Source: Ignavibacteria bacterium
GTDB taxonomy: Bacteria > Bacteroidota > Ignavibacteria > UBA10030
Reading direction: 5' to 3'
Length of the DNA stretch: 64,000 nucleotides
Assembly: GCA_016873805.1 (NCBI GenBank)
Contig: VGVZ01000001.1
Span: 124,001 to 188,000 of the forward strand
Shown here: positions 5,859 through 33,352 of the stretch, one piece after another
How the letters are laid out: each line of letters starts with the position of its first letter
Numbering within the stretch: position 1 is the stretch's first letter
Notes under the pieces: generated by a model
What the model was told of the DNA's origin: nothing
What the model saw: only the letters and a program-made list of their open reading frames with translations
Database searches by the model: none
Made by a program: the position numbers and the translations under genes

Positions 5859-6216
5859 TCCCAAAACGACAGAACTTAGCGAGCCTTTCAGGGCGAAGCT
5901 AAGTTCTTTGTCGTTTTGAGGATCCCGTCGATCCGCCGCAGGCGGAGAGACGGGAGCTGCCCCGCAAAGTCGACGACACGAGTTAGCTGCTTGTGATATC
6001 AGAGCGGCTACCTCGTTTGTCGTTTTGAGGAGTTAGCGAGTCCGTCAGGACGAAGCTAACTCTTTGTTGTTTCGCGCGTCCCGACGATGCCGCGTTTCTC
6101 AGCGTCCCGACATTTTTCAGTCGGGATTGTCGGGACCAGACGCACGGGTTCTCCGCCTACGCTTGAACAACAGCTTCGGCGGATCTCACTTCGTTCGAGA
6201 ATCCCGTTAGGGCTAC
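5859..6216 (+). repeat. 358-bp palindrome-rich unit, copy 2
   Basis: Tandem repeat of 5501-5858, again closed by the tRNA-Glu 3'-end sequence at 6199-6216. The offset between matching bases is exactly 358 at both boundaries checked. The recombinase remnant begins immediately after it. Confidence 0.9.
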
Positions 6217-6825
6217 GAGCTGCACCCTGAAACTCAATTGCGTTTTTGGCCTGAAAACGCTGTTGGGCGCTGACAGGAAAACTCGCTGCACCCTGAAACA
6301 CGGAAGGTATCTGTGCACGGTCTGTGACGTTGGGGATTATGGGCAGGGGTTTGATGTAGCAGCGGACTTTGCGTTCCTCCCGGTTGACCAGAATCGCTTC
6401 TACAATCCTCTTGAGTACTTCTTTTCTCTCCATCACTGACAACTCGTCGAAGGTCCTTTCGAAGTCCTCTATGAAAACTCTGACAGCTTTGGCGACGCGC
6501 TTCGGATCCAGCTTTGGAGGCTCAAGTGCGAGCAATCGCCTTCTCTCTTGCTCAAGCTTCTCCTGAATTTCCTCGAGTTCTCTGATTCGAACGCTTACAC
6601 TCCTCAATCCTGCTCCCTCTTCTGCAATCGAGAGAAGGTTCGCTATTTTTCCTTCGTTTTCCCGGAGGATCTCATCGATGTTTTCGAGCCTTTGCTCAAT
6701 TGCTGACGGCTGCTGCTTGTTAAACTCTTCGACGTATTTGAGGACATTTTGCGCAGAACCAGGATTCAAAAACGTTTGCTTGATGCTCGTGAGAACGAAG
6801 TCCTCCAACTTGTCCTGCCTGATCG
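6217..6825 (-). pseudogene. Large serine recombinase, C-terminal remnant
   Basis: The frame begins mid-protein at the IS boundary (IRQDKLEDFVLTSIKQTFLN). It then shows the long coiled coil and the basic ending usual in the C-terminal part of large serine recombinases (ELSVMERKEVLKRIVEAI, then VRCYIKPLPIIP). The catalytic serine domain and zinc ribbon are missing, cut off exactly at the end of the IS element at 6826. The frame has no stop until 6056, so it reads through into the 358-bp unit; the original end is probably near 6220-6330. It was probably the integrase of the island and is now inactive. Confidence 0.7.
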
Positions 6826-6895
6826 TGAGCTAGCCCCCGAAAAGAGATCCAAGATTTAGTTAGGAAGAATGTTATCTTGGGTCAAAGGAGGCAAC

Positions 6896-7174
6896 ATGGG
6901 AAGACAGAAACACACGGCGGAACAGATTATCAGCAAGCTGAGAGAAGCGGAGGTACTCCAAGGCAAAGGCATGACGCTGGAGGAGACGCTTCGTCAGCTG
7001 GGCATCAGCGATGCGACATACTACAAATGGCGGAAGGAGTATGGCGGGTTGAGGCTCGACCAGGCTAAACGGCTGAAGGAACTTGAGCAGGAGAACAGCC
7101 GATTGCGGAAGGTGGTGTCTGATTTGTCGATCGACAATGCGATTCTCAAGGAGGCAGCCCGGGGAAACTGGTAA
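6896..7174 (+). CDS. IS3-family transposase OrfA
   Basis: A 92-residue helix-turn-helix protein starting MGRQKHTAEQIISKLREAEV. The ATG at 6896 follows a strong AAAGGAGG site. The HTH (LEETLRQLGISDATYYKWRK) is followed by a leucine-zipper-like coiled coil (LKELEQENSRLRKVVSDL). It binds the IS ends. OrfB lies in the -1 frame, as expected for programmed frameshifting to the OrfAB transposase. Confidence 0.92.
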   Translation: MGRQKHTAEQIISKLREAEVLQGKGMTLEETLRQLGISDATYYKWRKEYGGLRLDQAKRLKELEQENSRLRKVVSDLSIDNAILKEAARGNW

Positions 7175-7197
7175 GCCCGGTCAAACGGCGCCGGGCG

Positions 7198-8043
7198 GTG
7201 AAGGAACTCCAGGAGGCCATGCATGCCTCGGAACGACGTGTATGCCGTGCATTGGATCAGCCACGAACGACTCAGCGACGCAAGAGGATTGTGAAGGGAG
7301 ACGAGGAAGCGCTGAGGCAACGGATGACGGCTTTGGCGTGTGAATATGGCCGTTATGGTTATCGCAGAGTGACGGAGTTGTTGCGAGCTGAAGGATGGAG
7401 GGTCAACCACAAGCGGGTTGAACAATTGTGGCGTCAGGAGGGCCTGAAAGTGCCCAAGAGACAGCCAAAGCGGAGACGATTGTGGCTGAATGATGGCTCG
7501 TGCGTCCGCTTGCGACCATTGTATCGGAACCACGTCTGGAGCTATGATTTTGTCGCTGACCGGACCAGTGACGGTCGACCGTTGCGGATGCTGAACATCA
7601 TGGATGAATACAGTCGGGAGTGTTTGAGGATCCACATTGACCGACGAGTGAAAGCAACAGATGTGCTCTATGAGTTGTCGGATCTCTTTGTTGAACGCGG
7701 AGTGCCAGACTTCCTGCGATCGGATAATGGCGCAGAGTTCACCGCCAAGCAAGTACGCGAATGGTTGCAGAGGCTGGGAGTGAAGACGCTGTTTATCGAA
7801 CCAGGTAGTCCTTGGGAGAACGGGTACATTGAATCGTTCAACGGCAAGATGAGAGACGAACTGCTGAACGGAGAGATCTTCGATACGATCCTGGAGGCAA
7901 AGGTAGTTACAGAACGATGGAGGAAAACCTACAACACAATACGGCCACACAGTTCACTGGGATATCGGCCACCAGCCCCAGCGGCCAGATACCCCCTCAG
8001 CATGCCAACCTGCCTGCCGGCAGGCAGGTGGCAGAATGCATAA
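7198..8043 (+). CDS. IS3-family transposase OrfB (DDE integrase domain)
   Basis: A 281-residue rve-type integrase. It has an HTH_21 segment (YGYRRVTELLRAEGWRVN) and then the catalytic acids: D in SYDFVADR, D in RSDNGAEF and E in NGYIESFNGKMRDELL. The D-D-35-E layout is intact. It is made as a fusion with OrfA by -1 frameshifting; the GTG at 7198 is the annotated internal start. Near its C-terminus, a perfect 20-bp palindrome (8009-8028) adds about six residues in frame (TCLPAG). Confidence 0.92.
   Translation: MKELQEAMHASERRVCRALDQPRTTQRRKRIVKGDEEALRQRMTALACEYGRYGYRRVTELLRAEGWRVNHKRVEQLWRQEGLKVPKRQPKRRRLWLNDGSCVRLRPLYRNHVWSYDFVADRTSDGRPLRMLNIMDEYSRECLRIHIDRRVKATDVLYELSDLFVERGVPDFLRSDNGAEFTAKQVREWLQRLGVKTLFIEPGSPWENGYIESFNGKMRDELLNGEIFDTILEAKVVTERWRKTYNTIRPHSSLGYRPPAPAARYPLSMPTCLPAGRWQNA
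8009..8028. repeat. Perfect 20-bp GC palindrome inside orfB
   Basis: CCTGCCTGCC followed directly by its exact reverse complement. It lies in the last codons of the IS transposase and keeps the frame. The same core recurs at 36945-37013 and 50329-50347 and in looser form elsewhere in the window. Confidence 0.85.
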
Positions 8044-8133: not shown

Positions 8134-9165
8134 TCATCTACCAGCTAGGATCTCGAGCCCTGGAACCGCGACGACTGTAATCGCTGTGTCTTTGTAATCG
8201 GGTGGTATCTCCCCAATATTCCATCCTGTCGATGTCATTTCAACATAGTAATACCTTTTACCATCAGACTCGGCATAAACACCTTTCATGCCTGTGGCAC
8301 CTGCAACCCCAAGTGCAGCATGTCCTGGCAAAAACAGTAACGCCACATCGTAACCCATCACTTTTAGTATAGCTGCTCCAAGAATAGAAAAATCCTCGCA
8401 ATCGCCGGCGTCTTCAACAAGGGTTTCAACGGGATATTTTGGGTACTCACCGACATCGCTCCTGTAAGTGATTACACTCTGTACGAAGTGAAGGATAAAA
8501 TTAACCTCAGCGAATGTCCCAAATGGATTACCAATTTTAATGAGTTGATATGCTAGCTCCCTCACTTCACCGCAAATGCCTTTTGCGACATATTCTTTAG
8601 ACCATTCAGAGGATGGTACACGCGGCTCTGCTCTAAGGTGTTCATAGATTGCGCGTCTGATGACTAGTCTGAGGGAATAATCCTTTCCGTTCTGATTCCA
8701 TTTGTATTCCTTGACGATATCCTCTGGTATTTGAGGCTTTGTCAATTCGGGGATAGAGACAACTCTGGAGGGTACAACATCTTCCTGCAACAACTTCGGG
8801 ACTATTTCAATGCCCAGAGCATTTGCTAATAGAATCGCTGCAAGGGGGACAAGCGCACCTACTGTCGCAACAGAAAGCCCAACGATAGAAAGGGAGAATA
8901 ATAGGACTATGATACCGCTCGCGCCAGTTAACAAAGCGATCCATTTGACTCCTCGTACCCTGATTAAGTTCCTAGTGAACAACTTAAGATCCGGCTTGTA
9001 CGAATGGATGAGAAAAACCATTATCCAAAAGATCAACAAAGAGATAGCAAAGAAAATTGGGATTGAGAGCCAACCTACCACTGGGAAAAGGTCAAAAAAA
9101 GGCTCAATCAGAAAATGATAAGGTAACCAGAGTATCAGGTAGATTATAAGGCTAAGCAGAAGCAT
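8134..9165 (-). CDS. Membrane-anchored transglutaminase-like cysteine protease
   Basis: A 343-residue protein. Two N-terminal hydrophobic hairpins come first (about residues 3-20 with 29-54, and 75-117). A soluble transglutaminase-fold domain then shows a plausible triad: C256 in AGDCEDFS, H282 in LPGHAALGV and an acidic residue E309 in YYVEMTS. Members of this fold act as peptidases or amide-crosslinking enzymes. It is the last gene of the tubulin-like/vWA operon, 34 bp after the 722-residue membrane partner, which suggests it processes proteins at the same membrane site. The substrate is unknown. Confidence 0.75.
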   Translation of the reverse strand: MLLLSLIIYLILWLPYHFLIEPFFDLFPVVGWLSIPIFFAISLLIFWIMVFLIHSYKPDLKLFTRNLIRVRGVKWIALLTGASGIIVLLFSLSIVGLSVATVGALVPLAAILLANALGIEIVPKLLQEDVVPSRVVSIPELTKPQIPEDIVKEYKWNQNGKDYSLRLVIRRAIYEHLRAEPRVPSSEWSKEYVAKGICGEVRELAYQLIKIGNPFGTFAEVNFILHFVQSVITYRSDVGEYPKYPVETLVEDAGDCEDFSILGAAILKVMGYDVALLFLPGHAALGVAGATGMKGVYAESDGKRYYYVEMTSTGWNIGEIPPDYKDTAITVVAVPGLEILAGR

Positions 9166-9199
9166 CGTTTGGTCCAGACTTCTTGGAGATTGCTCAATC

Positions 9200-11368
9200 C
9201 TAAACTAGTATGGATTCAAGATTCACGCCCTCAGAGAAACAGTAGAACGAGATTCTGTAAATGCTTTTTGCGCTTTGAACCTCAACAGTTCGAAAGTTAT
9301 GTTCGATGGCCGTTGTTATTCTCGAACGGATATCATCACAGCCCTCAGATTGAATTTCTATAGTAGGCGCGTACCCTCCTCTTGGTTCGTCTGGCTTCAA
9401 AACAAGGAAGGGCTCAGCAGATCTAATAATTAGTTCCAAAATGTTGTTGAATTGTTGCTCATTTTCTCTTAGCAATTGGCAAGCGGACAAGTCCAATACT
9501 GGTGTGCTATGTGGCAACAAGTGAAGAGCTGCACCCTGAATGAGTTTCCACTCCCATTCGTTCCATTCACTCGTACCTTTCGGAGACAACCTTTGCCACA
9601 GTTCAAGAGGTTGACGCGAAACAAGATACTCTCGCGTGAGATTCCCTACGTTCACATTTATGAACTTCTGGTATTTGACGATTTCTTCTCTACGATTGAC
9701 CACATACATCCAAAATGCCGAACCAGATGGCGCCGGGGCAAGATACTTCTCCTGACTGAAATCAATTATTTCCTTCAGCCGTTCAGCAGCACTCTCTATC
9801 TGAGAAACAACCTCATCAATAGTTGCGAAGTATTCAGGCAGTTTCTGATACATTACTTTCGTGATTTCGTGGTCAAGCAGCGAATTCCATTTACCCAACA
9901 ATGTCTCCCAAATCGAGACGACAAGCCGTTCAATTCGTGTAGTCCATGCGTTCCAGTAAATGAACCCTGTTAGAGCGGCGAGAAACGCAAAACCCGTGGC
10001 AAATAGACTTGAATCAATGACGGTCCATCCGATAAGAAAGCTAGTGAAAGCAAGAAAGATCGTTCTTACACTTACTGATTCTTTTCGAGGTCCACGCTGT
10101 ACATCCTGTGCAAGTCGACGGGTTAGCGGAACAACATCAGAATATTGGGCGGGAGAAGGTTCTTTCGGGATAAGCTTTTTGATATGTTCTCTTAGTTTTT
10201 GTAGAAACGATTCGACCACGTTCAATCCACCGACCTCTCCAGAGATAATCGCATTCACTTCTTCGAGAAGCTGATACCGGAATTCTTCCAAGTGCTTACT
10301 GGCGATCTGTAGCATGATCTTACCATTTTCACTAGCCAAGTCTGGAAGACCCGCATCGATAGTATCCACAAAGGAAATGAACTTCTCCGGGTTCCGAAGA
10401 TCCCATTTTGATGGTGTTTTACTGCCGACCTTTTGTCTCTCTCCAAAAGGATTAGGAAGTGGAAATCTTTCATTCTGAGCAAGTTCCTTACGAAATACGT
10501 CAGCAGAATTGAGCGAGCTTTTATTAAGAAAAGAAAGCACACGTGCGTCCGCTTTTTCATCCGACGGCGTTTGAAATAAAGCTTCTTGGAGCAATTCTCC
10601 AGCCTTCCCTATCAATATGGTTTCCATGATTTGATCGATGGGAACTAAAACAGAAATGCCAGAAAAACCCGTGCACCAACCATTCGAGGGACTGTTGCCT
10701 TTAAGCCATTCACGATACTGATCTGTTCTTGATTCAATGGTCGCATCAATTGGTCCTTTTGTAAGTACGTACAGAACATGCCCAATTAGGAAATGCAGAT
10801 CTGTTGGGTCGGTGTACATCGCGCCACGAGGATTGGCCATGTTTACTATGAAAAGTCGATCTAAGTGCTCTTGAGCCCATGCAAAAACCTCATCATTTGA
10901 TAAGTTTTTTCCTCGATCATCTGGTCTAACAAGAAATATTCCTGTTCTGAAAAGTGGGAGTGAATCACCCGTTTGTTTCTTGTGAAGATCGGCAAAGAAT
11001 TGATCAATCTTCTGAATTCGTTCGTGCGCTTCCTGCTCGGACAAATCTGCGACAAATATGAGTTGATTAATTGTATCTACAATGCGGTATCCTTTTACTA
11101 TCAGACCATTTATCGTTTTCGCGTCGAATGACTGTTGCCATGTCCTCAAGAGCACATCTTCTTTTGAAGCTTGATCGGAGGCAATCCAGGGGTAGAGTAG
11201 TTCCAAACCGCTCTCAGTAAGCGGGAACCATTGATGAAACCAATCGGCGATGTGACCCAAGGACGGAGAAATCATTACGTAGAAGGTCCTCGACACGTAC
11301 TTACTTTGTGGAACCTTGCGAGGACCGGTCAGCGCGTGTATTTTCGTTCGTAACTCTTCCAAGGGCAT
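9200..11368 (-). CDS. Large membrane partner of the tubulin-like protein (function unknown)
   Basis: I do not recognise a named family. The 722 residues divide into a long N-terminal region (1-430), a pair of membrane helices (about 435-452 and 455-473) and a C-terminal soluble region. The N-terminal region has Rossmann-like stretches (FRTGIFLVRPDD near 140; RLFIVNMANP near 171; FSGISVLVPIDQIMETI near 235). The C-terminal region is rich in charged helices. The gene starts 17 bp after the tubulin-like gene. Its first part appears to be a cytoplasmic alpha/beta fold, and the helices could anchor the filament-forming partner to the membrane. That role is inference from position and topology. Confidence 0.55.
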   Translation of the reverse strand: MPLEELRTKIHALTGPRKVPQSKYVSRTFYVMISPSLGHIADWFHQWFPLTESGLELLYPWIASDQASKEDVLLRTWQQSFDAKTINGLIVKGYRIVDTINQLIFVADLSEQEAHERIQKIDQFFADLHKKQTGDSLPLFRTGIFLVRPDDRGKNLSNDEVFAWAQEHLDRLFIVNMANPRGAMYTDPTDLHFLIGHVLYVLTKGPIDATIESRTDQYREWLKGNSPSNGWCTGFSGISVLVPIDQIMETILIGKAGELLQEALFQTPSDEKADARVLSFLNKSSLNSADVFRKELAQNERFPLPNPFGERQKVGSKTPSKWDLRNPEKFISFVDTIDAGLPDLASENGKIMLQIASKHLEEFRYQLLEEVNAIISGEVGGLNVVESFLQKLREHIKKLIPKEPSPAQYSDVVPLTRRLAQDVQRGPRKESVSVRTIFLAFTSFLIGWTVIDSSLFATGFAFLAALTGFIYWNAWTTRIERLVVSIWETLLGKWNSLLDHEITKVMYQKLPEYFATIDEVVSQIESAAERLKEIIDFSQEKYLAPAPSGSAFWMYVVNRREEIVKYQKFINVNVGNLTREYLVSRQPLELWQRLSPKGTSEWNEWEWKLIQGAALHLLPHSTPVLDLSACQLLRENEQQFNNILELIIRSAEPFLVLKPDEPRGGYAPTIEIQSEGCDDIRSRITTAIEHNFRTVEVQSAKSIYRISFYCFSEGVNLESILV

Positions 11369-11385
11369 ATTTGCTGATAGATTTT

Positions 11386-14334
11386 TTAGATTCTCTCCCG
11401 CAACTCCAGCACGGCAATCTCTACCTTTTGGTCGACTACCGCGAAAAGGGAATTATACAAGGCTCTCAAAACCTCCACTCGCCTCTTTTCCTTCCCTTTC
11501 GTCGGCACTTTGGATGAAATTTCGATCTCCCTTCGGAGGACTGGCTCAAAATCACTAATTAGTCTCGATCGAACTTCAGATCTTTTTTCACTAATTCTCG
11601 CTTCCACAAGGTTTCGTACTCGCTCGCGCCATTCTGGCTGAACAGTAAAATTCTCAACTGCTTCCTCAATCCCCGTACCAATCTTGATCTTTTCTTCTCC
11701 TGCCCCAGTTTGTATGAAGTATACATTACCTCTATTGTAAATGTATGCTTCATTCCTTTTTTCGTCCGTAGGATACAGATAACTAAGGGCTCTTCCCAAA
11801 GCAAATAATTCAAAAGCCTCGTCCTCGCCCTTCGGTCTTGGAACGAGTTCCTCCCACTTAGATGCATCAGTCCAACAATGAATGGGTCTATGAGCGATTC
11901 CCTCTGAGAATGCTTGCTCATAGCGAGCTTGCAGCATGTCGTAGTTTGCCTTATAGGTTTGCAACCTTGTAAGGGAATGGGCAGTGTAACCATGTCGAAT
12001 GCAATAAAGAACTACTTCGAAGGCGTTTGGGAAATAAGCATGCATCATTCCATCGCCTTTTGGCTTGTAGTTTCCAAATAGTTGCTGAAAATCCTGCCTG
12101 ATGCTCTGGTGAACGGCGGTGATCCAACTTGTTTCATACGCTCCTTCTTGCTTGCTACTATCGAGGGGGAAAAGTGCATTTGCGAGGCTGACCAATGACG
12201 TAAAGAGAGAATCTTTCTTCTGCTGTTCTGAGTAAAAGTGATTGATTACAGTCAAGATGTTGACTCCTAAAAGCTTGCTCTGAATCTCATCGTTGATTGC
12301 TCCTTTTACTTTCGCGACCCACATTTCATCACTGGAGGATGTGTCTGTAATCATCTCCGTTTCACGCCACAGATGACGAGCTCGTTCGGCAATCGCCTTT
12401 TCTAAATCAGACGGGATGTATTGATCATACAATACCTTTGCTCGCTCCTTATCAACAAGGCTAAATCTATTCCCAGCTCCACGCTTGCTGATATCTGAGA
12501 GGCTGTCTATTTCTAAACCTGTCGCAACGGCACTGTTTCTCACAAACGCAGACCTTCCTCTTAAGGAGTCTTGGACTTTCACCCATCGGCCATGAAAACC
12601 CTTCAGATATGAAGATAGCTTCTCATAGACTTGGATTCCTATTTCCTGAGACCACACAACTACTTGCTGGTTCAAATATGCCTCAAGATCACCGTCAAAA
12701 GACCCCAGAGCAGCTTTGATCTTACCACCTCTTCCGACGATGAAGCTTTTTGCTGCCATTCCAACCGCACCAGCCGATTGGGAGAGTTTGTGATCAGCTT
12801 TGACCAACCGTTCTTTGTCTCTATGAAACTCTTGTTCTAGAGCTTTCCGGTGAGCGGAAACTTCATTTGACAAGCGTTCAAGAAAATCAACTGCCGCTCC
12901 TACCGACTGACCTTTGAGAATCTCGTGGAACCTTAATTCTAAACCTTTCTTCGCCAACTCCAACAGCACCGATGAATTCTTTTCCATGATCGGCTTGTAT
13001 TGTTCGGAAACTGAGAGTAGTTTCTTAGCCTTTAGGTCTGAGCAGGCTTTTATGAGTTCCGTCCGTTTCTTGTCTCCGATTTCACCAACCACGTCTATGG
13101 CAATCCTCATAGGGTTGCCTTCTTTGTTTTTTCGGATCGCTCCTTGCAGCTGATCAGCCTTAGCTTCCGACAAATGATGTTGGTCTATCCATTGATCCAC
13201 TTCGCTTTGGCCGACGGAATCCAGCAACTCCTTGTCCAGAGCATGGTCAATAATTCGAAGGGCATAAAGCTCGACCAGTTTCTCCATCGGTAGTCCGAAT
13301 CGGACTGTGCCAATCGAGGATAGAAACTTAGGCATATCATCAATTCCAAAATTGGATTGCTGAGGATTCTCTTTATCCTGGACCTTAGGCTGACCCTCGC
13401 TCGTTTCGAGCGGACTCTGAATCTCGAACATGAGGTATTGAACAACCGAATCCGCAATGTCCTTCATTTTGTCAAAAATCACTTTGTCGTTTCGGTCCGT
13501 TACTAGGAAAAGTGGATCAGGCATGAAATCTTGTGAGACCATAACATTTTCGTATCCGGGCATTCCATACGTGACTGTTTCTTTGTTGCCACGGATGAAA
13601 TGAAATATTTCTTTCAAGGACGCATACACGTTGGCGTAGAAGTCGGGGAATTTAATATCCTGTGCCTCATCTTGAAGAACTTCCGGTGTGACAACAATCG
13701 ATTGAAAAAGATAATTAACTCCAACGTTGTCCGATAGGAATTTCTTCGTGACGATGCAGGCGTCCGCGAACATTCCTGATCCAGTACCTCCTGCGAGACT
13801 GGAAATCAAGTACACCTTCGTGTTGGCTCGGGCTCCGAAGTTTTGTTTGAACCTGTTTACGGTGGTATAAGCCGAGTTCAGACTAGCAAGAAATTTGGTT
13901 AGCGTAGGAGGAAAAAGAAAAGCTATTCTCCCCAGAGGCTTGGTCATATCTACTCCACCGGAAATTGTTTTTGCACTCCATTTGCCGGCAAGTTTCTTGT
14001 ACCATCCTAATGACTTTGCATTCCTCGGATTGCTAGCGACAGTGTCCGGATGAATCCCTATCATTTCGATGTACTCTACCGGCGTAAGGATATCCGTAGT
14101 TTCACGAGAGTGAGTATCTAACGCGATAAAGGCAAAGCCGTCTCGAATTTGCGGAACTGGTATTAGGTCATTGATGCTCTTTTTAAGCGCGCGCACAACC
14201 ATGCACCCGAAACCACCAAGCACGATGTAGATCGTGGGCCTGAATGATGCGTTGTGTTGTAGCTCTTCCCATGTGCCTTTGTAGTTCTCATTTCGGACAT
14301 GAGGATTGATAATGTCGTTCCAAAAGTCTGGCAT
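11386..14334 (-). CDS. Tubulin/FtsZ-like GTPase (Tubulin_2-type)
   Basis: A 982-residue protein. The N-terminal 200 residues carry the tubulin-superfamily GTP site: the first loop IYIVLGGFGCMV (35-46), FIALDT (69-74) and the signature SSLAGGTGSGMFADA (178-192), equivalent to GGGTG(T/S)G of FtsZ and tubulin. It is much longer than FtsZ. A long helical C-terminal extension follows, with coiled-coil-like stretches near 490-530. Such proteins are known as a separate branch of the superfamily, tied by gene neighbourhood to vWA and membrane proteins and proposed to remodel membranes. The flanking genes here fit that pattern exactly. Polymerisation and nucleotide use are not proven by sequence. Confidence 0.8.
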   Translation of the reverse strand: MPDFWNDIINPHVRNENYKGTWEELQHNASFRPTIYIVLGGFGCMVVRALKKSINDLIPVPQIRDGFAFIALDTHSRETTDILTPVEYIEMIGIHPDTVASNPRNAKSLGWYKKLAGKWSAKTISGGVDMTKPLGRIAFLFPPTLTKFLASLNSAYTTVNRFKQNFGARANTKVYLISSLAGGTGSGMFADACIVTKKFLSDNVGVNYLFQSIVVTPEVLQDEAQDIKFPDFYANVYASLKEIFHFIRGNKETVTYGMPGYENVMVSQDFMPDPLFLVTDRNDKVIFDKMKDIADSVVQYLMFEIQSPLETSEGQPKVQDKENPQQSNFGIDDMPKFLSSIGTVRFGLPMEKLVELYALRIIDHALDKELLDSVGQSEVDQWIDQHHLSEAKADQLQGAIRKNKEGNPMRIAIDVVGEIGDKKRTELIKACSDLKAKKLLSVSEQYKPIMEKNSSVLLELAKKGLELRFHEILKGQSVGAAVDFLERLSNEVSAHRKALEQEFHRDKERLVKADHKLSQSAGAVGMAAKSFIVGRGGKIKAALGSFDGDLEAYLNQQVVVWSQEIGIQVYEKLSSYLKGFHGRWVKVQDSLRGRSAFVRNSAVATGLEIDSLSDISKRGAGNRFSLVDKERAKVLYDQYIPSDLEKAIAERARHLWRETEMITDTSSSDEMWVAKVKGAINDEIQSKLLGVNILTVINHFYSEQQKKDSLFTSLVSLANALFPLDSSKQEGAYETSWITAVHQSIRQDFQQLFGNYKPKGDGMMHAYFPNAFEVVLYCIRHGYTAHSLTRLQTYKANYDMLQARYEQAFSEGIAHRPIHCWTDASKWEELVPRPKGEDEAFELFALGRALSYLYPTDEKRNEAYIYNRGNVYFIQTGAGEEKIKIGTGIEEAVENFTVQPEWRERVRNLVEARISEKRSEVRSRLISDFEPVLRREIEISSKVPTKGKEKRRVEVLRALYNSLFAVVDQKVEIAVLELRERI

Positions 14335-14379
14335 GGGGAAATCCCTTTCTTTGTTTTGGCTAGTTTGAAAATCGGGTTT

Positions 14380-16596
14380 TTACCTCAGGTAGGCGAACTC
14401 GTAGTCACCGACCTTTAGTCGTAGCCCTGGTGAAAGATCATAAGTTTCCCCGGGCTCTCTCTGGATTTCAATGTCCACGTCGGGATCTTTGACGTTAATC
14501 TCTTGTTTAGATTCCTCCGGACTATCGTTCTTTATGTAGTCCCGCCCAAAGCGATAGAAAATAAGTTCTACACGCAAATCGTCTGGAAGCAATTCAAGAA
14601 CAATATCCCCGTGATCCCGGCCAATACGAATTCTGTTCTTCTTCCAGTTAAGCCACCTACTCCAAATGCCCCTTTTGACCTTACCGAGCTCAATGTCATC
14701 CAACAAAACTCCAGAAGGAGCACTGAGGGGGCGAAGAACACCTACTGGCGCTTTAAGCCTTGCCCAAAGCAGAACGAGGACAAGTAGAACTATGAGCAGT
14801 ATTCCGAGTACAACAAGCAAAGGCAATGTGAGTTTTTCCCAGATACTGGGGACATGGACACTGTATCGAACCTTAAAAGACTCATTATGATTTGTTGAGA
14901 AAGTCAATTCGCCCTCATAATCACCCCAGCATCCGTCCTCTGGGATCGCCATCGCGATTTCACGAGAGAGCGCCTCACCGGGCTTGATTGTGAAGTCGGT
15001 ACTGCTAACCCGAGGATGCTTTGCTACTTCGTCTTCACACCTGCTAAGTTGCGTGGTCTTCGAATGGACTCTTACAGTTCGATTTTCTTGAAGACCGGAT
15101 ACAATCCTCACGGTGTAGGTTTTGGTTTCACCCTGATCAATATCTCCAAAACTTATGTAGTCTGGTTCAACGTAGAATCGAGGCAAAACCATGCACTGAA
15201 ATTCTTTGCTCGGTCGAGGAAACATCTCATTCCCGTTCTTGTCCCGAGCGTGAAGAGTGAATCTCAATTTCAGGGTTCCTACTCTCGCAACGGAATATTC
15301 AAGGGAAAAACCCTTTTCAGTTTCTACCAACGGAATAGAAGACCGCAACTGATCTTCAGTCATTACATCTACCACTACTTTCGAGCCAGGACCAAGGACA
15401 CCACGTGCATCTTTACCACCAATGGTCACTTTCACGGAACACTCCAACCTCTCTCCAAAGAGATATTTTTGCTTCAGTCCTTCGACCTCGAGTTCGATCA
15501 TGCTTTTCCCTACGATCAGCAAACGATATTTCCCACTCCCGGAATCGAATATATAGGACCACGAACCAGGCGGGGTTGCCTTTTTGAGAGGAACTATCTT
15601 TAGATTCTGATGTGTATATCCGAGGGCTTCCTCCTCTAAATTATTTGGAGCTCTCAACTTGAATTTAGCGGCCTGATCGGTCAAGACTATGAACTTCCCA
15701 TCCCTCACATACTCATCAATAAAGATTCGCTTTGATGAATGGAGTTGAATTATATCTTCTTCAGTATGCAACTTGATGCTATTCTGCCAGAATTGTAAGA
15801 GACCCAAAAAGACATCCATCAGGTCAACTGCTTCATCTGCAAAATAAGCATGCGATTCAGTCTTTGACTGGCTCGTCTTTTCGGCTAAATAGGAAAGGAA
15901 TTCCCGATCAGCATCTGTGCTGAACCCAACACAGAAAACCTCCACCTGCTGCTCCACGAAGAGCGGTAGTATATGCGAATCAATGATTCTCCTCGCAATG
16001 GGGGTAAGCTTATTACGATAGTGCTCGTTTATTCGTCTGATTGATTCGCGGTCTTCTCCCCGGATGGCAAGTCTATACTCTATGTTGTAGGGAGCATAGC
16101 GATCACTAAACGGGTTAGGCTCGAAAATCCCATCCGAAAGAAGTAAAATAACCTTTCTGGAATTAGCCGGCGCTTCCTCAATGACATTCTTTGCTGTTTC
16201 AAGCGCCGCCCTAAAATCTGTGTGGGCTCCTTTATTCCCCGCACGAGCTATTGCATTGATGATTTTCTCCTTTTCAGATGCCATACTCCAATCAGAAAGA
16301 ACCCTACCATCGGAGTCAAACTCAATCACAGCAATCCTGTCAACAGGAGAAAGTAGCAACGCTATAGCTTGAGCTGCGAGTTTTCTGAACTCCGATGAAT
16401 CTGTCGTTCTCATGCTGCCCGAAGCATCCATCAGGAGAACCAAGGAAAGAGGTCGTGAATCCAGCGATGTGTTCTTCCCAACGGACTGATTCGCTTTGAA
16501 GCCCTCCGAATCGGAAGTGAAAACAGTGAAAACCAGCAGAAGCAACATTACAGAAGCTCCAAGGCCTAATTTGATGTGCACGATAACCTGCTTCAT
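14380..16596 (-). CDS. Membrane-anchored von Willebrand factor A domain protein
   Basis: The ATG at 16596 follows AAGGA at good spacing and gives 738 residues. Residues 8-27 form a signal-anchor helix. The vWA domain follows, with the MIDAS motif DASGS (D57, S59, S61) and the later strand VILLLSDG. The middle is a run of beta-rich, Ig-like extracytoplasmic segments. A second membrane helix (LLVVLGILLIVLLVLVLLW) lies near residue 610, then a cytoplasmic beta-rich tail. A metal-bound vWA outside the membrane and a tail inside could pass a signal to the tubulin-like protein encoded next. The spacing to that gene is 45 bp. Confidence 0.8.
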   Translation of the reverse strand: MKQVIVHIKLGLGASVMLLLLVFTVFTSDSEGFKANQSVGKNTSLDSRPLSLVLLMDASGSMRTTDSSEFRKLAAQAIALLLSPVDRIAVIEFDSDGRVLSDWSMASEKEKIINAIARAGNKGAHTDFRAALETAKNVIEEAPANSRKVILLLSDGIFEPNPFSDRYAPYNIEYRLAIRGEDRESIRRINEHYRNKLTPIARRIIDSHILPLFVEQQVEVFCVGFSTDADREFLSYLAEKTSQSKTESHAYFADEAVDLMDVFLGLLQFWQNSIKLHTEEDIIQLHSSKRIFIDEYVRDGKFIVLTDQAAKFKLRAPNNLEEEALGYTHQNLKIVPLKKATPPGSWSYIFDSGSGKYRLLIVGKSMIELEVEGLKQKYLFGERLECSVKVTIGGKDARGVLGPGSKVVVDVMTEDQLRSSIPLVETEKGFSLEYSVARVGTLKLRFTLHARDKNGNEMFPRPSKEFQCMVLPRFYVEPDYISFGDIDQGETKTYTVRIVSGLQENRTVRVHSKTTQLSRCEDEVAKHPRVSSTDFTIKPGEALSREIAMAIPEDGCWGDYEGELTFSTNHNESFKVRYSVHVPSIWEKLTLPLLVVLGILLIVLLVLVLLWARLKAPVGVLRPLSAPSGVLLDDIELGKVKRGIWSRWLNWKKNRIRIGRDHGDIVLELLPDDLRVELIFYRFGRDYIKNDSPEESKQEINVKDPDVDIEIQREPGETYDLSPGLRLKVGDYEFAYLR

Positions 16597-16613
16597 TTGA
16601 TGGGTCCTTCTAA

Positions 16614-16913
16614 TCAGAGCACTCCGAACACTGCCAGGATTAACCTCAGGGAGATCATAACCCATCCAACCAGCACAATTATCCACGTGGCCTTACGCGC
16701 TGCCTGAACGAGAATGAGAAACGCTGTAACCACCGCAAGATAGTCTACCGGATTGATCAAGTCATCGCGCAGCGCGAGACTGGGGAAGATTATGCCGATA
16801 GCGTTCAGAATTGCGAAGCCTACGTAGTGTGCGGTTGAATGGATAAATGTGAGTATCTGATGCAGTACCTCCTGCCACAGATTGTCCGGAAACATCCCAA
16901 GTGAGAATGTCAT
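16614..16913 (-). CDS. Small multi-pass membrane protein
   Basis: Ninety-nine residues with about three hydrophobic segments (YVGFAILNAIGIIFPSLAL, YLAVVTAFLILVQAA, WIIVLVGWVMISLRLILAVF). The ATG follows GGAG at normal spacing. No family is recognised. It precedes the vWA gene by 17 bp and probably opens the vWA/tubulin-like operon. Confidence 0.55.
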   Translation of the reverse strand: MTFSLGMFPDNLWQEVLHQILTFIHSTAHYVGFAILNAIGIIFPSLALRDDLINPVDYLAVVTAFLILVQAARKATWIIVLVGWVMISLRLILAVFGVL

Positions 16914-17550
16914 GGTTTCTCCAAGAGCAGTGATCGCGTCGTCGCGCGATGCATTGTGTATGTCGCCAGGGAGTTGTTCTCGCCCCGAGACAATCCTCCG
17001 GGCGGCGAGGACTTGTACATGAGCGTCGAATTGTAATGGGGTGACTTTATCTGAAGAGGGGAGTAGTGAAAAAACACTGGACTCACAGGCCTCTGGCGGC
17101 TCGAAGGGTCAGTTCTGAGCGTGCTGCCAGACGCGGACGGCAACAGAACTAGATGAATCGATGAGGAGACTGGCTGAATGGACCTTGACCGCAAGTGCCG
17201 TTGTGAAAGGCTTTGTTCTTCCACAAGGACCGAGCTAGCCTGTGAAATGAGGAAAACATATCTGAAGGCTGTGGCCATTCTGAGGCAGTTACCAAAAAGA
17301 GACAGAGTTTATGGTGCCCCTGCCGCACGGTTCCCCAACACGGGAATCTTAACACTGTATAAGCCAAGCGAATATCTTCAACCTAAGTCTAATTGGCGAA
17401 CGGTCAAAGTGCTGAAGGAGAACAGCGAATAGACACATTTTCGAGGAGACATTATACCGCCATAAAACCTTAGATTCAACTAGCAAACCAAAGAAGAGGT
17501 CGCGAATCCAACGATGTTTCCATCCCACCGGTTTTATGGTGAGGAGCTAT
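16914..17550. other. 637-bp gap that probably holds the promoter of the vWA/tubulin-like operon
   Basis: No convincing gene. The longest minus-strand frame (16910-17278) is a low-complexity Ser/Arg-rich shadow. This is the only large break in the minus-strand gene run from 34039 to 8134, so a promoter for the downstream module is expected here. At about 17478-17520 the minus strand resembles codons 43-50 of the vWA gene (see findings). Confidence 0.4.
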
Positions 17551-17877
17551 TTATTGCTCCTCTTCAACAATAACGACCACGCTTCTATCTCCGATCGCAA
17601 AAGCCTGATTCACCCGGCCGGTCACCTTAAGTTTTGCCCCTTTTGCGGGAACCGACTTCTTTGCCACGACGACGATTTCACCCGTTGCATCTCTCACCGC
17701 GTAATATCTCAAGAAGATAAGATTAACGCTTTCAGTGACATCACCGGAAATAGTTACGGTCTTCCCGTCATATTCACGTGGGTCATCAAGAATCTTCTTT
17801 ATGTCCGTTGGAAATAGCTGTGAACACGACGCGCAAATGAAGACAAGAATGGGTAATATGACTGTTACCAAAACCAT
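17551..17877 (-). CDS. OB-fold lipoprotein (tRNA_anti-like)
   Basis: Starting at the ATG at 17877 (AGGA about 9 bases upstream) gives 108 residues. A hydrophobic signal (VLVTVILPILVFI) ends at a lipobox CASC. A small OB-fold of the tRNA_anti-like type follows, with the sequence DPREYDGKTVTISGDVTES and the strand GAKLKVTGRVN. Such domains act as periplasmic or outer-membrane binding modules of unclear ligand. The gene follows the M48-TerB gene and is the last of the upstream run. Confidence 0.65.
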   Translation of the reverse strand: MVLVTVILPILVFICASCSQLFPTDIKKILDDPREYDGKTVTISGDVTESVNLIFLRYYAVRDATGEIVVVAKKSVPAKGAKLKVTGRVNQAFAIGDRSVVVIVEEEQ

Positions 17878-17977
17878 AGGCTCGATTCCTGGCTTGCTTG
17901 CGACACTCGCACGTTGAAATAGGAGACGTCTTTCCTCTCGGTCACCTGTACTGCGGGAGATAATGTCGATAAAAGAA

Positions 17978-19300
17978 CTAGTCATTTGGGCTTCGTGGGA
18001 ATCCTATCTTCATTGACTCTCGCAGTTCATCTGCAATTCTGTTAAGCTTGATGTCTGTTCTGAAACCTACCGTTTGCGCCGCGCCAATGATGATACGGTA
18101 TGCATTTCGTTCGGGGATGTTCAGCATTTCCGCAATCCTCATTATTACACCGCCCTCAGCATCGAGCAAAGCACCGTCCGCCAGGGCAATGTCTGCCAGT
18201 CGGGACAGAATAAACTCTTTGTCATGCTCATCCCCATCTCTGTTTACCTCTGCAATAACCTTTGGAAGTTCTTCCAAAACCTGATCTCGATTCGACAAGA
18301 TTTCTTTCTCTGGCTCATCTGTGAACCAGCGATGAAGTATTTGAATTAGAATCTTTGCCTCTTCATTGCCGATATCACCGTCGGCACCCAGTGTGAGGAC
18401 ACCGCTGAGAGCAACTGCTTTCATGACAGACTGGTGCAGTGTTTTGTAGGGATAACGGCGAGTCAGGTGAATAAGATCGTCAACGCTGTCCTCTAGCTCT
18501 TCGTCGTTCAATCTTTGTCCTTGCGTCTTGAGTCCATTTCTTGTCGCCTTTTCGGACCGGGAAAAGAGTTCGAGAGCTTTCAAGCGTATGGGTAACACCG
18601 GATGAGACGCGAAAGTCTCTTCCATCAGTTCCGGGTGACCTTTTATCTCGTCGATTTGGTGAAGAAGAGAGTCGATATCCAGATTCAGATTCTTTTCACT
18701 GAGGCCGAAAGCGCATTTCATCAATGAGGTTGCCGAAGCTTTGAAATTGCCGCACGCAAGAAGACCTACGCGATCAGCGCTTATCTCCGCCTTTTTCCTC
18801 CAGCGCAGATACAAACTCTCACCTAGAGGTGGCAAAACTGTTACTGCAGGGTTCTTTTCATCTCGTGTGAGAAGGGCGTTGAGGCGATTATTCCTGAAGA
18901 GGAAATGACCCATTTCATGACCGAGCACGGATTTGATTTCCGCATCTTCGAGATTCTCAAGTGCGCCGGCAGTGACCGCTACCAGGGAGTATGTGCGGGA
19001 CTTTTGGATATCCAGAGAAGCAAATGCATTTATTTCCATTCCCGGGAGGCAATAGATTTCTTCCGTTGCCTCTATGTCGAGGCTGCTGCACACGTCACGG
19101 AAAATTTTATGTATGCGAGGTGATAGGCGATCCGTCAGCTTGATTCCCTCTTTCATCAACTTTTGGCGTAAACCAGAGTCATCCTGTCTCAGACGCTCTT
19201 CATACGTATTCAGATAGTTCTCAACACGGTAGACTTCAAACAACTCCTTCACATCTTCTGCGTCACCGCGATAACGAATATCTTCGTAGTTGATTGGCAT
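17978..19300 (-). CDS. M48-family metallopeptidase fused to a TerB-like domain
   Basis: A 440-residue protein. The N-terminal half is a zinc peptidase: HEMGH with H128, E129 and H132, and the third ligand in EISADRVG (E172), as in the HtpX/Oma1/M48 group. The membrane helices usual in HtpX are missing, so it is probably soluble. The C-terminal 160 residues hold a TerB-like helical domain (SGVLTLGADGDIGNEEA near 310; LADIALADGALLDAEGG near 374). TerB-type domains are tied to stress-response systems with vWA proteins and membrane-linked signalling. The gene sits between the channel-like module and the OB lipoprotein. Confidence 0.8.
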   Translation of the reverse strand: MPINYEDIRYRGDAEDVKELFEVYRVENYLNTYEERLRQDDSGLRQKLMKEGIKLTDRLSPRIHKIFRDVCSSLDIEATEEIYCLPGMEINAFASLDIQKSRTYSLVAVTAGALENLEDAEIKSVLGHEMGHFLFRNNRLNALLTRDEKNPAVTVLPPLGESLYLRWRKKAEISADRVGLLACGNFKASATSLMKCAFGLSEKNLNLDIDSLLHQIDEIKGHPELMEETFASHPVLPIRLKALELFSRSEKATRNGLKTQGQRLNDEELEDSVDDLIHLTRRYPYKTLHQSVMKAVALSGVLTLGADGDIGNEEAKILIQILHRWFTDEPEKEILSNRDQVLEELPKVIAEVNRDGDEHDKEFILSRLADIALADGALLDAEGGVIMRIAEMLNIPERNAYRIIIGAAQTVGFRTDIKLNRIADELRESMKIGFPRSPND

Positions 19301-19360
19301 GGCTTTATTTCCAGTTTAGCAGATCAAAAGGCATTCCTCCAGTCCGATGCCGCAACCGCA

Positions 19361-19840
19361 CTAATCCTCCCGCACAATTTTCACAATCGCAAAGATTATG
19401 AATGCGAAGACCGCCAGCGCAAATACAGTCTCTGAAACGATCACAACCGGATCACTTGCGGAGGAGAATTGAGTAACGCTATCAGCCGTCGCTTCAAGAG
19501 CATCTGATCGTTGTTTGCCGCTTGAATCGGCACCGGAGAGCAACCTAATATCCAGTTGGGAGAACACAAGGTAACTCAGAGCCAAAACAGCTCCGATGCC
19601 AGGCATCCGTAGGTTGGGATGATAGCCAGACTCTCTCTTTCCTTCCTCCGTGTCCGACCAGCGAAGCTCAAAGGCAGCGTAGTCAAGCAACAGGAAGGCG
19701 AACGGCAGAAAGATAAGAAGACGCAACGCTGTGTCAGCATCGTGCAACAAGGAATCAACGATCAGTGCGAAGATCAATAGCGTAAGCACCAATCGCCATG
19801 CCCGAGTTACAAAAGCTCGAATGTGCTCAACTATTTTCAT
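19361..19840 (-). CDS. Three- or four-helix membrane protein, function unknown
   Basis: A 159-residue protein with hydrophobic segments at about 14-28, 40-54, 83-95 and 133-153, and a basic start (MKIVEHIRAFVTRAWR). AAGGAG precedes the ATG. No known family. It begins 11 bp after the channel-like protein gene, so the two are probably translated together and may form one membrane complex. Confidence 0.55.
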   Translation of the reverse strand: MKIVEHIRAFVTRAWRLVLTLLIFALIVDSLLHDADTALRLLIFLPFAFLLLDYAAFELRWSDTEEGKRESGYHPNLRMPGIGAVLALSYLVFSQLDIRLLSGADSSGKQRSDALEATADSVTQFSSASDPVVIVSETVFALAVFAFIIFAIVKIVRED

Positions 19841-19851
19841 TTTCTTACTCC

Positions 19852-21711
19852 TTAGCGCCTGGTGATGAGTGTGTAGAGATGCGCTATGAATACTCCCAAG
19901 TGAATGAATCCTGTAAACATGGTCAAGAGTGTGAGGGCCTTCGCGCCCGACGTCCCAGGCAGATCTATCGGTTGAAGGCCGAAAAAGGTACTATAGGCGT
20001 TGACCACATGATCACTCACTTGCCAACTTGCATCGAAGTCGATCTTGAGCCAGTAGCCGGCGAGGCCAAACACGAGGGGCCAAGTAAGAAGGGCAATGAT
20101 AAACAGAGCAAACGACCCGACAACCGTTTCGACATACCATCTAATTGGCCAGAAGAAGGCAAACCACGGGTGGCTGGAGAAATACCACCGGCGATTCAGA
20201 TCCCTAAAGTGCTTCAAACACTGTTGCTCCTCGTCGAATTGCCCATATTGCCGGAAGATGCGAGCAATTTGGGTGATGATGCTCATCTGTGCATTCAGCA
20301 AAGATCTCTGACGCACACTTGAGTGAAACCACCGTGCCACTGCTTTGGCTTCCATCTCGATTTCTTTGAGTCTGTTTTTCACATCGATGTTGTAGGCAAC
20401 ACCGTAGAACATACACTCGGCTTTCACTTCGAGTTGATGGCGGAGAGCTGTTGCCTCTAGAGCCGTAGTGGGCGTCCGGAAACCCAAGAGTTCGGATGCT
20501 TCCAGTGCCAACGTCGCGCCTCGAATGCACTCTTGAACTGAATCGGCTTCTTTGAGGATCTTCTCGGCGCGGTTGTTGAGCCTCTCGGCGACAACAAGAA
20601 GGCGGCCGGGAGCGCTGTGGCCTGAGGCACCCTCCTCCGCAAAACGGCGAGGGTCAGTATCATCTCTCCATTTACGTAGCCTTTGCCAGTAGGCGTTGAG
20701 CAAGCCGGCCTTTTCAAGCAAATTATATATGCCGCCGCTGGGTTTGAAGATTCTCTTGATTTTCTTCTCGAGGATAAACAAACGATTCCTCTCATACGAC
20801 TCGCTGTGCTTGTGTCCGACGGTAACCAAGATGTGCCGCTTGACGCGATTCAATCCTTTATACCGCTCCTCAAATCGCTTGTGAAGGTCCGACCGCCCCT
20901 CGCGCTCCGGCTCATCGGGAAAGTTGAGATAGATATCCTGAAAAGTTGTCTCCAAGTCGCTACTATTCCTCTCATTTCCAAATAACTCGTCCATCATTCT
21001 TTCAGTTGTGACAAGATGAACACGATAACCGAGTTTGTAAAGAAGGTACCCATGCATGAAGGCATAGGGTTCTTCTTCGTCAATTGCGGCGGCGCATTTT
21101 GTCCGCTCGAGGAACCCTAGACTGTCGTTAGGGAGCCTCATGTTGTACTGAATTGCGTTTCTAAGTCCGGCGGGATCAAACAACGATCGGTAATGTGATC
21201 CCGTTGCTTTCCGTAGATTGATCATCCCGCGCAAGAAGTTATGCCAGTCAAGCAGATGAAACTTACTGAGTGTAGAAATATCGACTAGTCCATTAGCTGT
21301 GTCCATCTTTGGCCGCAAGAATCGATCAGCGGAACCGGTCAAGACTAACCAATGTGCTTCAGGAAAAGCAAGAACCAGCATAGAATAGACCTCTGCTGCT
21401 AACGAAGAGAACTCTGGTCTAGTATAGACTGGATTCATTTCCCGAAGCCTTTCCAACGGTAGTCTAGTATCTTTCGACGTAGAGTTGAAAAGGCAGGGAT
21501 CAATCAGGCCAACCAAGCTTTTGTCTGTCTCAGACTTTGAACAGTAAGCCTCTAATTGAGAAGACAGCTCCTCGAACTGTCGAACTGCATTCTCGCGACT
21601 CCAATCGCAAAGGGGCTTAATCCACACAGATTCAACTCCCCCCACGAAAGAAAGATACCGCTGGAAAGCATTCGCAAAACTAGAATCACCGGTGAAAAGA
21701 TAAAAGGTCAT
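19852..21711 (-). CDS. Sensor-like protein ending in a two-helix channel-like pore
   Basis: A 619-residue protein in three parts. Residues 1-330 look like an alpha/beta region (YLFTGDSSFANAF; LVGLIDPCLF; AFMHGYLLYKLGYRVHLVTT). Residues about 370-500 are helical (ATLALEASELLGFRTPTTAL). The C-terminus resembles the Ion_trans_2 pore: TM1 at about 530-552, a pore-helix-like AYSTFFGLQP segment near 571, and TM2 at about 593-615 ending LYTLITRR. The usual TVGYGD filter is not present. This suggests a regulated ion-conducting effector or a degenerate channel. It follows the receiver gene by 14 bp. Confidence 0.5.
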   Translation of the reverse strand: MTFYLFTGDSSFANAFQRYLSFVGGVESVWIKPLCDWSRENAVRQFEELSSQLEAYCSKSETDKSLVGLIDPCLFNSTSKDTRLPLERLREMNPVYTRPEFSSLAAEVYSMLVLAFPEAHWLVLTGSADRFLRPKMDTANGLVDISTLSKFHLLDWHNFLRGMINLRKATGSHYRSLFDPAGLRNAIQYNMRLPNDSLGFLERTKCAAAIDEEEPYAFMHGYLLYKLGYRVHLVTTERMMDELFGNERNSSDLETTFQDIYLNFPDEPEREGRSDLHKRFEERYKGLNRVKRHILVTVGHKHSESYERNRLFILEKKIKRIFKPSGGIYNLLEKAGLLNAYWQRLRKWRDDTDPRRFAEEGASGHSAPGRLLVVAERLNNRAEKILKEADSVQECIRGATLALEASELLGFRTPTTALEATALRHQLEVKAECMFYGVAYNIDVKNRLKEIEMEAKAVARWFHSSVRQRSLLNAQMSIITQIARIFRQYGQFDEEQQCLKHFRDLNRRWYFSSHPWFAFFWPIRWYVETVVGSFALFIIALLTWPLVFGLAGYWLKIDFDASWQVSDHVVNAYSTFFGLQPIDLPGTSGAKALTLLTMFTGFIHLGVFIAHLYTLITRR

Positions 21712-21725
21712 AATTTAAGTGCAGT

Positions 21726-22106
21726 TCAAGATTGCTTTGTCAAGCTTTTAAGTTCCTCCTTCAGTTGCCATACATCGATAGGTTTGCGCAAGAACTTCTC
21801 TGCCCCGCTATTAAGACAATCTACGGCTGCATCGAAATCTCGGTACGCTGACATCATCACCACGGGTATAGCAGGGTAATTTTTCTTCGACCAACGGAGA
21901 ACCTCGATGCCACCTCGATCTATGCCAGGACGAGATTCATCCAAACAAATATCCACCAGCAATAAGGATAACTCCTTCGACATCTTGCCTTTCGCTTCAT
22001 CGAACGATGTCGCAACAACAATCTCAAAATCATTCTCCAATGCTCGGCGGAGCGAATTGAGGTACTCAGGCAGGTCATCAATAATAAGAATCTTTGCTTT
22101 TGCCAT
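21726..22106 (-). CDS. Single-domain response regulator (receiver only)
   Basis: Starting at the ATG at 22106 gives 126 residues, exactly one CheY-like receiver. Key residues are D10/D11 (ILIIDD), the phospho-acceptor D52 in LLLVDICLD, the conserved MMSA switch segment and the lysine in FLRKPID. There is no output domain, so it must act by protein contact, plausibly on the channel-like protein encoded 14 bp downstream. The partner kinase is likely the histidine-kinase-like protein encoded two genes upstream. The longer frame to 22277 overlaps the preceding gene and is not needed. Confidence 0.85.
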   Translation of the reverse strand: MAKAKILIIDDLPEYLNSLRRALENDFEIVVATSFDEAKGKMSKELSLLLVDICLDESRPGIDRGGIEVLRWSKKNYPAIPVVMMSAYRDFDAAVDCLNSGAEKFLRKPIDVWQLKEELKSLTKQS

Positions 22107-22140
22107 TGAATCTGATAATCTGAATTGCGGTTCTTGGACT

Positions 22141-23139: not shown

Positions 23140-23150
23140 TTCATAATTCC

Positions 23151-28856: not shown

Positions 28857-28865
28857 AGAACCACT

Positions 28866-30014: not shown

Positions 30015-30030
30015 CTTTATTTCTCCTTAT

Positions 30031-30759: not shown

Positions 30760-30760
30760 C

Positions 30761-33268: not shown

Positions 33269-33352
33269 GAGAATGACACCCTGGCAACAAAGATAAGAGA
33301 AGCCTTTGGGCAAGCAAGACGTCCATTGGGAGTCAAAAGACTACCCAAAAGA

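Follow-up and report, generated by a model that had tools for sequence, protein, structure and literature searches.

A predicted membrane-anchored, G-loop-less paralogue encoded next to a tubulin-like protein of the FtsZl1 family

How might a cytosolic tubulin-like protein be linked to a membrane? The question is raised by five adjacent minus-strand open reading frames (ORFs) at 8134-16913 of a 64,000-nt stretch of an Ignavibacteria bacterium genome (contig VGVZ01000001.1; hereafter, the window). They encode a tubulin-like protein (TUB), a 722-residue membrane protein (P722), a vWA protein, a transglutaminase-like protein (TG), and a small membrane protein (SM). TUB-like proteins, named FtsZl1, have been described since 2010, and a function for them is still missing. 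According to the main text of Makarova & Koonin 2010 (PMC2875224), a vWA gene is present in the majority of FtsZl1 operons, other membrane proteins that belong to no known family often accompany it, and kinase, GTPase or OmpA neighbours are frequent, though not obligatory; whether FtsZl1 forms filaments was left open there. Here, we present evidence that P722 is probably a degenerate, membrane-anchored paralogue of FtsZl1. Such a gene next door would give a testable answer to the question above, namely that a sister subunit recruits the tubulin-like protein and assembles with it. All five ORFs are present and intact:

16614-16913, minus strand: SM, 99 aa, identified as an ORF
14380-16596, minus strand: vWA protein with a VWA_2 match, 738 aa from Met31 (768 aa from the GTG at 16686, to which the ORF extends)
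11386-14334, minus strand: TUB, 982 aa, FtsZl1/Tubulin_2 family, PF13809 match
9200-11368, minus strand: P722, 722 aa, putative degenerate FtsZl1 paralogue, from profile comparison
8134-9165, minus strand: TG, 343 aa, transglutaminase-like, Transglut_core match under the cut-off

The intergenic gaps are 17, 45, 17 and 34 bp, given that the vWA protein starts at Met31 (16596) and not at the upstream GTG. The original prediction, made from the letters of the sequence, had described five such genes with gaps of 17-45 bp; with this start the gaps were confirmed, and the motifs that it had listed were all found (GGTGSG at TUB 182-187, DASGS at vWA 87-91, and Cys256/His282/Glu309 in TG).

TUB and its G-loop-less neighbour

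TUB matches PF13809 (Tubulin_2) in Pfam at E=6.5e-33 (114.9 bits vs a cut-off of 27). Its GGTGSG loop is intact, and its T1 loop reads LGGFG, the family consensus being GGTG. An FtsZ-like domain is followed by a long, helical, coiled-coil-like middle region and a mixed C-terminal domain. When an AlphaFold2 model of TUB (mean predicted local distance difference test score, pLDDT, 71) was compared with the PDB by Foldseek, CetZ, gamma-tubulin and TubZ were returned, with CetZ2 as the best match (E 3.4e-5, probability 1.00). The tubulin-like GTPase that had been claimed is therefore backed by family match, motif and fold, and the outcome that would have counted against it, a model lacking a tubulin fold, did not occur. 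CetZ and TubZ share this fold with the TUB model; unlike them, FtsZl1 combines a long coiled coil with a C-terminal domain of its own. On sequence grounds, we assign TUB to the FtsZl1 family that Makarova & Koonin described in 2010, and we expect it to be soluble and to bind GTP. As in the vWA-FtsZl1 operons described in the main text of that study (PMC2875224), a GGTGSG-bearing FtsZ-like N-terminal domain is combined with a coiled coil and a helical C-terminal region, a vWA gene with a metal-ion-dependent adhesion site (MIDAS) and transmembrane (TM) segments lies adjacent along with other membrane proteins, and a canonical FtsZ coexists, encoded elsewhere in the same genome. Unlike those operons, the module is without kinase and OmpA genes; Pfam recognised no kinase, GTPase or OmpA neighbour gene in 8134-21711.

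The original prediction had taken P722 to be of unknown family. Single-sequence searches of Pfam, related genomes and plasmids returned nothing for it, as did hhalign and phmmer comparisons with its positional equivalents; the kinship described below came to light only with a deep FtsZl1 profile. Species genomes were scanned with a two-sequence FtsZl1 alignment (a broad alignment was too divergent), and 80 FtsZl1 loci were gathered. The FtsZl1 profile aligned P722 170-284, in the N half, to TUB 273-386 (hhalign, P=6.1e-7, score 61.8), whereas 10 shuffled sequences scored no higher than 23.4 and seven other window proteins no higher than 18.5. The C-terminal half of P722 likewise matched the C-terminal half of FtsZl1 (P=2.6e-5, shuffles negative), and a HMMER profile made of FtsZl1 and partner proteins, with P722 left out, picked up P722 among ~10,000 ORFs at E=1.6e-5. 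The two matching halves do not overlap and are collinear with FtsZl1. Where TUB has its GGTGSG loop, the aligned residues of P722 are SEQEAH; because the loop is absent, we class P722 as a degenerate paralogue and not as an FtsZl1 GTPase. A TM hairpin at 433-472, which agrees with the membrane partner that had been proposed, lies between the two conserved halves; with this short hairpin, both halves would lie in the cytosol. In an AlphaFold2 model of P722, residues 100-300 have pLDDT values that are mostly 70-89, and the alpha/beta core follows the same order as that of TUB. The input alignment had included FtsZl1 rows; we regard the model and its Foldseek result as consistent with, not proof of, a tubulin fold. 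Taken together, the profile matches, the missing loop and the hairpin argue that P722 is a degenerate FtsZl1 paralogue without a G-loop, probably anchored in the membrane.

Tubulin heterodimers such as alpha/beta-tubulin and BtubA/B bring together two paralogous subunits with differing nucleotide roles. By analogy, TUB and P722 would be a paralogous pair; unlike alpha/beta-tubulin and BtubA/B, P722 is entirely without a G-loop and membrane-anchored, and its heterodimer with TUB is putative. The two would constitute a tubulin-superfamily instance of an active/pseudo-enzyme pair. The main text of PMC2875224 reports neither a G-loop-less FtsZl1 paralogue nor a transglutaminase-like gene in the operon, and the other literature that we found does not describe a pseudo-tubulin partner of FtsZl1. 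The link between a tubulin-like protein and a vWA protein has been known since 2010, and the proposed identity of P722 is new.

Recurrence of the partner gene

In several other loci (labels beginning with L denote loci in other genomes), the gene directly downstream of FtsZl1 also encodes an FtsZl1 relative without a G-loop, mostly with a TM hairpin likewise placed:

L131 and L004: the window's class, L131 also belonging to the same taxonomic order
L027: an Acidobacteria metagenome-assembled genome (MAG)
L026: an unassigned lineage, ending at a contig edge
L028, L035 and the Caldilineaceae group: Chloroflexota
L076: Bacillota, a weaker match

The L131 partner passes Pfam Tubulin_2 (1.5e-9, 38 bits vs a cut-off of 27), and that of L035 reaches 2.3e-5. 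When the partners were compared with the FtsZl1 profile by hhalign, values of 2.6e-19 (L131), 4.5e-16 (L027), 1.7e-10 (L004) and 6e-10 (L026) were obtained. Across 133 tested genes neighbouring FtsZl1, and with L054 as well as L084 and L066 (apparent pieces of FtsZl1 genes) set aside, all matches at P<0.02 were to the downstream partner gene and none to an upstream one. In the alignment, every partner is without the G-loop and every FtsZl1 row has it. Partner-bearing loci cluster in the FtsZl1 tree, with 5 changes vs 13.4 for shuffled labels, near-copies contributing to this figure. Long branches, the window's included (2.66), dominate the tree, and for this reason we do not claim an exact place for the window's FtsZl1. 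Pfam confirmed vWA genes at L004, L028, L029 and L131, with a weak match at L051, and found no vWA match in the upstream gene of L027. The combination of vWA, FtsZl1 and partner genes thus recurs in other genomes, as the original prediction needed.

We also noted several other arrangements around FtsZl1. The partner-position proteins at the Clostridia loci L051, L052 and L091 and at L019 and L022 have a similar TM placement and no detectable FtsZl1 similarity, and they were not counted as partner homologues. In a cyanobacterium MAG (L054:6283-10254), a 1323-aa protein downstream of FtsZl1 matches the profile (P 4e-11) and is without a G-loop, but has a different layout. Ignavibacteria loci L017, L069, L088, L095 and L100 carry a stand-alone FtsZl1 near EF-P, accB and accC, with no vWA or partner gene; this form, found at a conserved place, is probably the vertically inherited one. 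The class that includes the window genome also holds genomes with an FtsZl1 ~60% identical to that of Ignavibacteria. In the same class, FtsZl1 at L132:225-6869 adjoins a protein of 948 aa that combines a KGGVGR-type ATPase with tetratricopeptide repeats and a TIR domain (TIR_2 8e-16); a second TIR protein of 359 aa (5.5e-13) is also near FtsZl1, and judging from these domains L132 is possibly an FtsZl1-linked conflict system.

Candidate input and output of the module

The vWA protein matches VWA_2 in Pfam at 2.5e-16, and its MIDAS looks complete, with Thr156 and Asp185 in addition to DASGS, in line with the MIDAS vWA protein of the original prediction. An N-terminal TM segment is followed by the MIDAS vWA domain, an Ig-like region, a second TM segment at ~620-642 (768-aa numbering) and an FHA-like tail. 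Because of the N-terminal TM segment and the second one near 620, the vWA domain is probably extracytoplasmic. Pfam gave no FHA family match for the tail; a profile of it, aligned with five other tails, was compared with the PDB and retrieved mostly FHA domains, an FHA domain first, with weak scores (best 3po8, E 0.013). We therefore describe the predicted cytosolic tail as FHA-like and no more.

The matches of TG lie under the curated cut-offs: in Pfam, Transglut_core at 0.0017 and Peptidase_C93 at 0.034 (14.3 bits vs 27), and in NCBIfam, LapG at 0.0019 (17.4 bits vs 320). Its best PDB sequence match is 4fgo (0.015), which we take to be an entry for LapG, a periplasmic protein. Cys256, His282 and Glu309 align with relatives, across which the Cys-His-Glu/Asp triad is kept. 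TG is membrane-anchored by 3-4 TM segments. The loop between TM2 and TM3 is strongly positive, which fits a periplasmic domain given three TM helices, and a periplasmic position is also suggested because relatives carry a single N-terminal TM segment or a signal peptide. From its matches and motifs, TG appears to be a LapG-like, membrane-anchored relative of cysteine proteases. It resembles LapG/BTLCP proteins (PMC3032545, PMC4359373) in its transglutaminase-like fold and Cys-His-Asp/Glu residues, and the Lap system offers a precedent for proteolysis in the periplasm that is under control across the inner membrane. Unlike those proteins, TG is membrane-anchored and similar to them only below every curated cut-off, and no LapD or cyclic di-GMP receptor was recognised next to it. 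Crosslinking or proteolysis had been proposed as the output of the module; crosslinking is the less likely of the two because the nearest named relative of TG is the protease LapG, while proteolysis agrees with the recurrence of a protease-like fourth gene, itself an assayable candidate output.

This fourth slot recurrently holds a membrane-anchored, peptidase-like protein drawn from different families; six related operons have such a gene following that of the partner. In Clostridia and L019 the encoded protein is large and membrane-anchored and contains a metallopeptidase-like domain. The fourth gene of L070 matches BSP above the cut-off (2.8e-7), and the metallopeptidase matches of L043, L051, L052, L091 and L019 are below it; L051 additionally has a Transglut_core match above the cut-off (3e-6). 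A TG relative is located near FtsZl1 in L018. SM (2-3 TM segments) has no Pfam match; in L131, the gene that immediately follows the partner gene encodes a 91-aa homologue (phmmer 1.1e-13, 36% identity). Members of the SM family also lie near other, unrelated genes within the order (L148-L157).

Collectively, we propose, tentatively and with somewhat less than even confidence, that the module is a membrane system in which the GTPase TUB and the membrane-anchored pseudo-GTPase P722 act together, with a vWA ectodomain and a protease coupled to them. P722 would recruit TUB to the inner membrane and pair or co-assemble with it; as a fixed pseudo-GTPase subunit, a nucleator or cap, it might confine GTP-driven TUB assembly to the membrane. 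Through a periplasmic MIDAS ligand-binding domain and a cytosolic FHA-like tail, the vWA protein could couple the TUB/P722 assembly to the state of the envelope or of the outside. TG, with its probably periplasmic domain, is the likely effector, which upon a change of assembly state would cleave a protein of the envelope or cell surface, and SM probably plays an accessory part as a small membrane subunit. The original prediction, an extracytoplasmic vWA sensor that drives polymerisation of a cytoplasmic tubulin-like protein, is partly supported overall, including its picture of a tubulin-like polymer at the membrane whose output is proteolysis. The anatomy of the module is well supported, namely its gene order, the families of TUB, the vWA protein and (from profiles) P722, the missing G-loop of the partner, the recurrence in other genomes and the triad of TG; GTP binding, pairing, polymerisation, topology, sensing and its direction, and protease activity are what we infer. 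A bolder version, which we consider rather unlikely, is that the tubulins of a widespread FtsZl1 branch function in obligate pairs, each made of a soluble GTPase and a membrane pseudo-GTPase nucleator or cap and joined to a vWA sensor and a dedicated membrane protease output. If true, this would be a transmembrane signalling device based on tubulin polymerisation.

Several findings count against the proposed membrane system. Pfam does not recognise P722 (best match 0.015, under the cut-off; no Tubulin_2 match). The first 100 residues of P722 are poorly modelled, and the top Foldseek match of its model, CetZ1, is weak (probability 0.92, E 0.15) and came from an alignment that held FtsZl1 rows; nearly all other higher-probability PDB matches are tubulins or FtsZ. 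The topology of TG hinges on the number of TM helices, one or two, in residues 76-121. Relatives of TG are widespread without FtsZl1, and nine further genomes from the order or family have SM relatives at FtsZl1-free places. Lastly, our literature search found no experiment on any FtsZl1 protein. As 50 of 296 genomes (Bacteroidota-type) carry a TG relative and the ten neighbourhoods read contained no FtsZl1, a specific co-occurrence of TG with FtsZl1 was dropped; we likewise gave up the notion that SM belongs to FtsZl1 modules only. Since the TG family is so widespread, the exact five-gene combination has so far been seen in this window alone; this part of the claimed novelty stands, and the vWA link, published in 2010, is not new.

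The same distributions favour the idea that TG and SM are island cargo, co-transcribed by chance, with vWA, TUB and P722 as the whole system. However, the gaps are short (17-34 bp), SM is also found within the L131 module, and both the TG relative in L018 and the peptidase-like genes of the six operons speak for a fourth gene that belongs. We consider the cargo explanation doubtful.

Genomic setting and the remaining explanations

GC content is 43-46% in the module region vs 52-54% in the flanks, and an IS3-type transposase at 6869-8043 borders the module. A single-sequence search found no P722 relative among the other 148 sampled genomes of the class. These observations are in keeping with the island that had been suggested, and an island setting is plausible. 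FtsZl1 is present in 27 of 391 genomes of the class and, within the relatives sample, in just 2 genomes of the family, the window's genome counted; the module is therefore accessory in this genome. A possible promoter lies 5' of the module:

16914-17550, minus strand: intergenic gap with a promoter-like site, by -10/-35 consensus matching

The site (17479-17451) has 10/12 consensus matches, and such sites are no more numerous in the region than expected by chance. Between a tRNA-Glu and the IS3 element, 6056-6808 may be a recombinase remnant (KfrA-like, weak match).

An unlikely alternative to the proposed membrane system is a membrane remodelling, vesicle or transport machinery, in which proteolysis would serve maturation only. 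This prediction has already been published in the main text of Makarova & Koonin (PMC2875224), and every part of the module but TUB is a membrane protein. A branched-chain amino acid ATP-binding cassette (ABC) operon is present on the module's strand, and a reviewer's remark mentions such a gene near Arthrospira FtsZl1; the operon is, however, >11 kb from the module, and the loci read showed no recognisable operon of this kind around FtsZl1.

Less probable still is a defence or conflict system, in which the assembly would sense phage or envelope damage and TG would mediate killing or dormancy. The module is accessory, low in GC and patchy, and in L132, from a genome of the same class, FtsZl1 adjoins proteins with TIR domains. 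Nevertheless, this is the one FtsZl1 locus at which TIR was found, the Ignavibacteria FtsZl1 has a conserved, stable setting, PADLOC models match none of the five proteins, and relatives of the module are absent from the plasmid and phage collections searched. Least probable of all, although vWA and FtsZl1 co-occur in the window and in many relatives as reported in the main text of PMC2875224, is that a vWA sensor outside the cytoplasm drives polymerisation of a single tubulin-like protein at the membrane with P722 as an unrelated adaptor, since two non-overlapping P722 halves match FtsZl1 in the same order and Pfam and profile comparisons identify the genes at its position in other loci as homologues of FtsZl1.

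Beyond the module, we noted an M48 peptidase fused to a TerB domain (17978-19300), two genes upstream on the same strand. Next comes a run at 19852-27248 that encodes a 619-aa membrane protein, a response regulator, and 337-aa and 1365-aa proteins without known family; the 1365-aa protein has no relative among 60 related genomes and contains a histidine-kinase-like SYAHNMGAHAL stretch. At 27276-34039, on the module's strand, lie genes for a radical SAM/B12 protein and a LuxR-type response regulator, together with the branched-chain amino acid ABC operon, which is complete.

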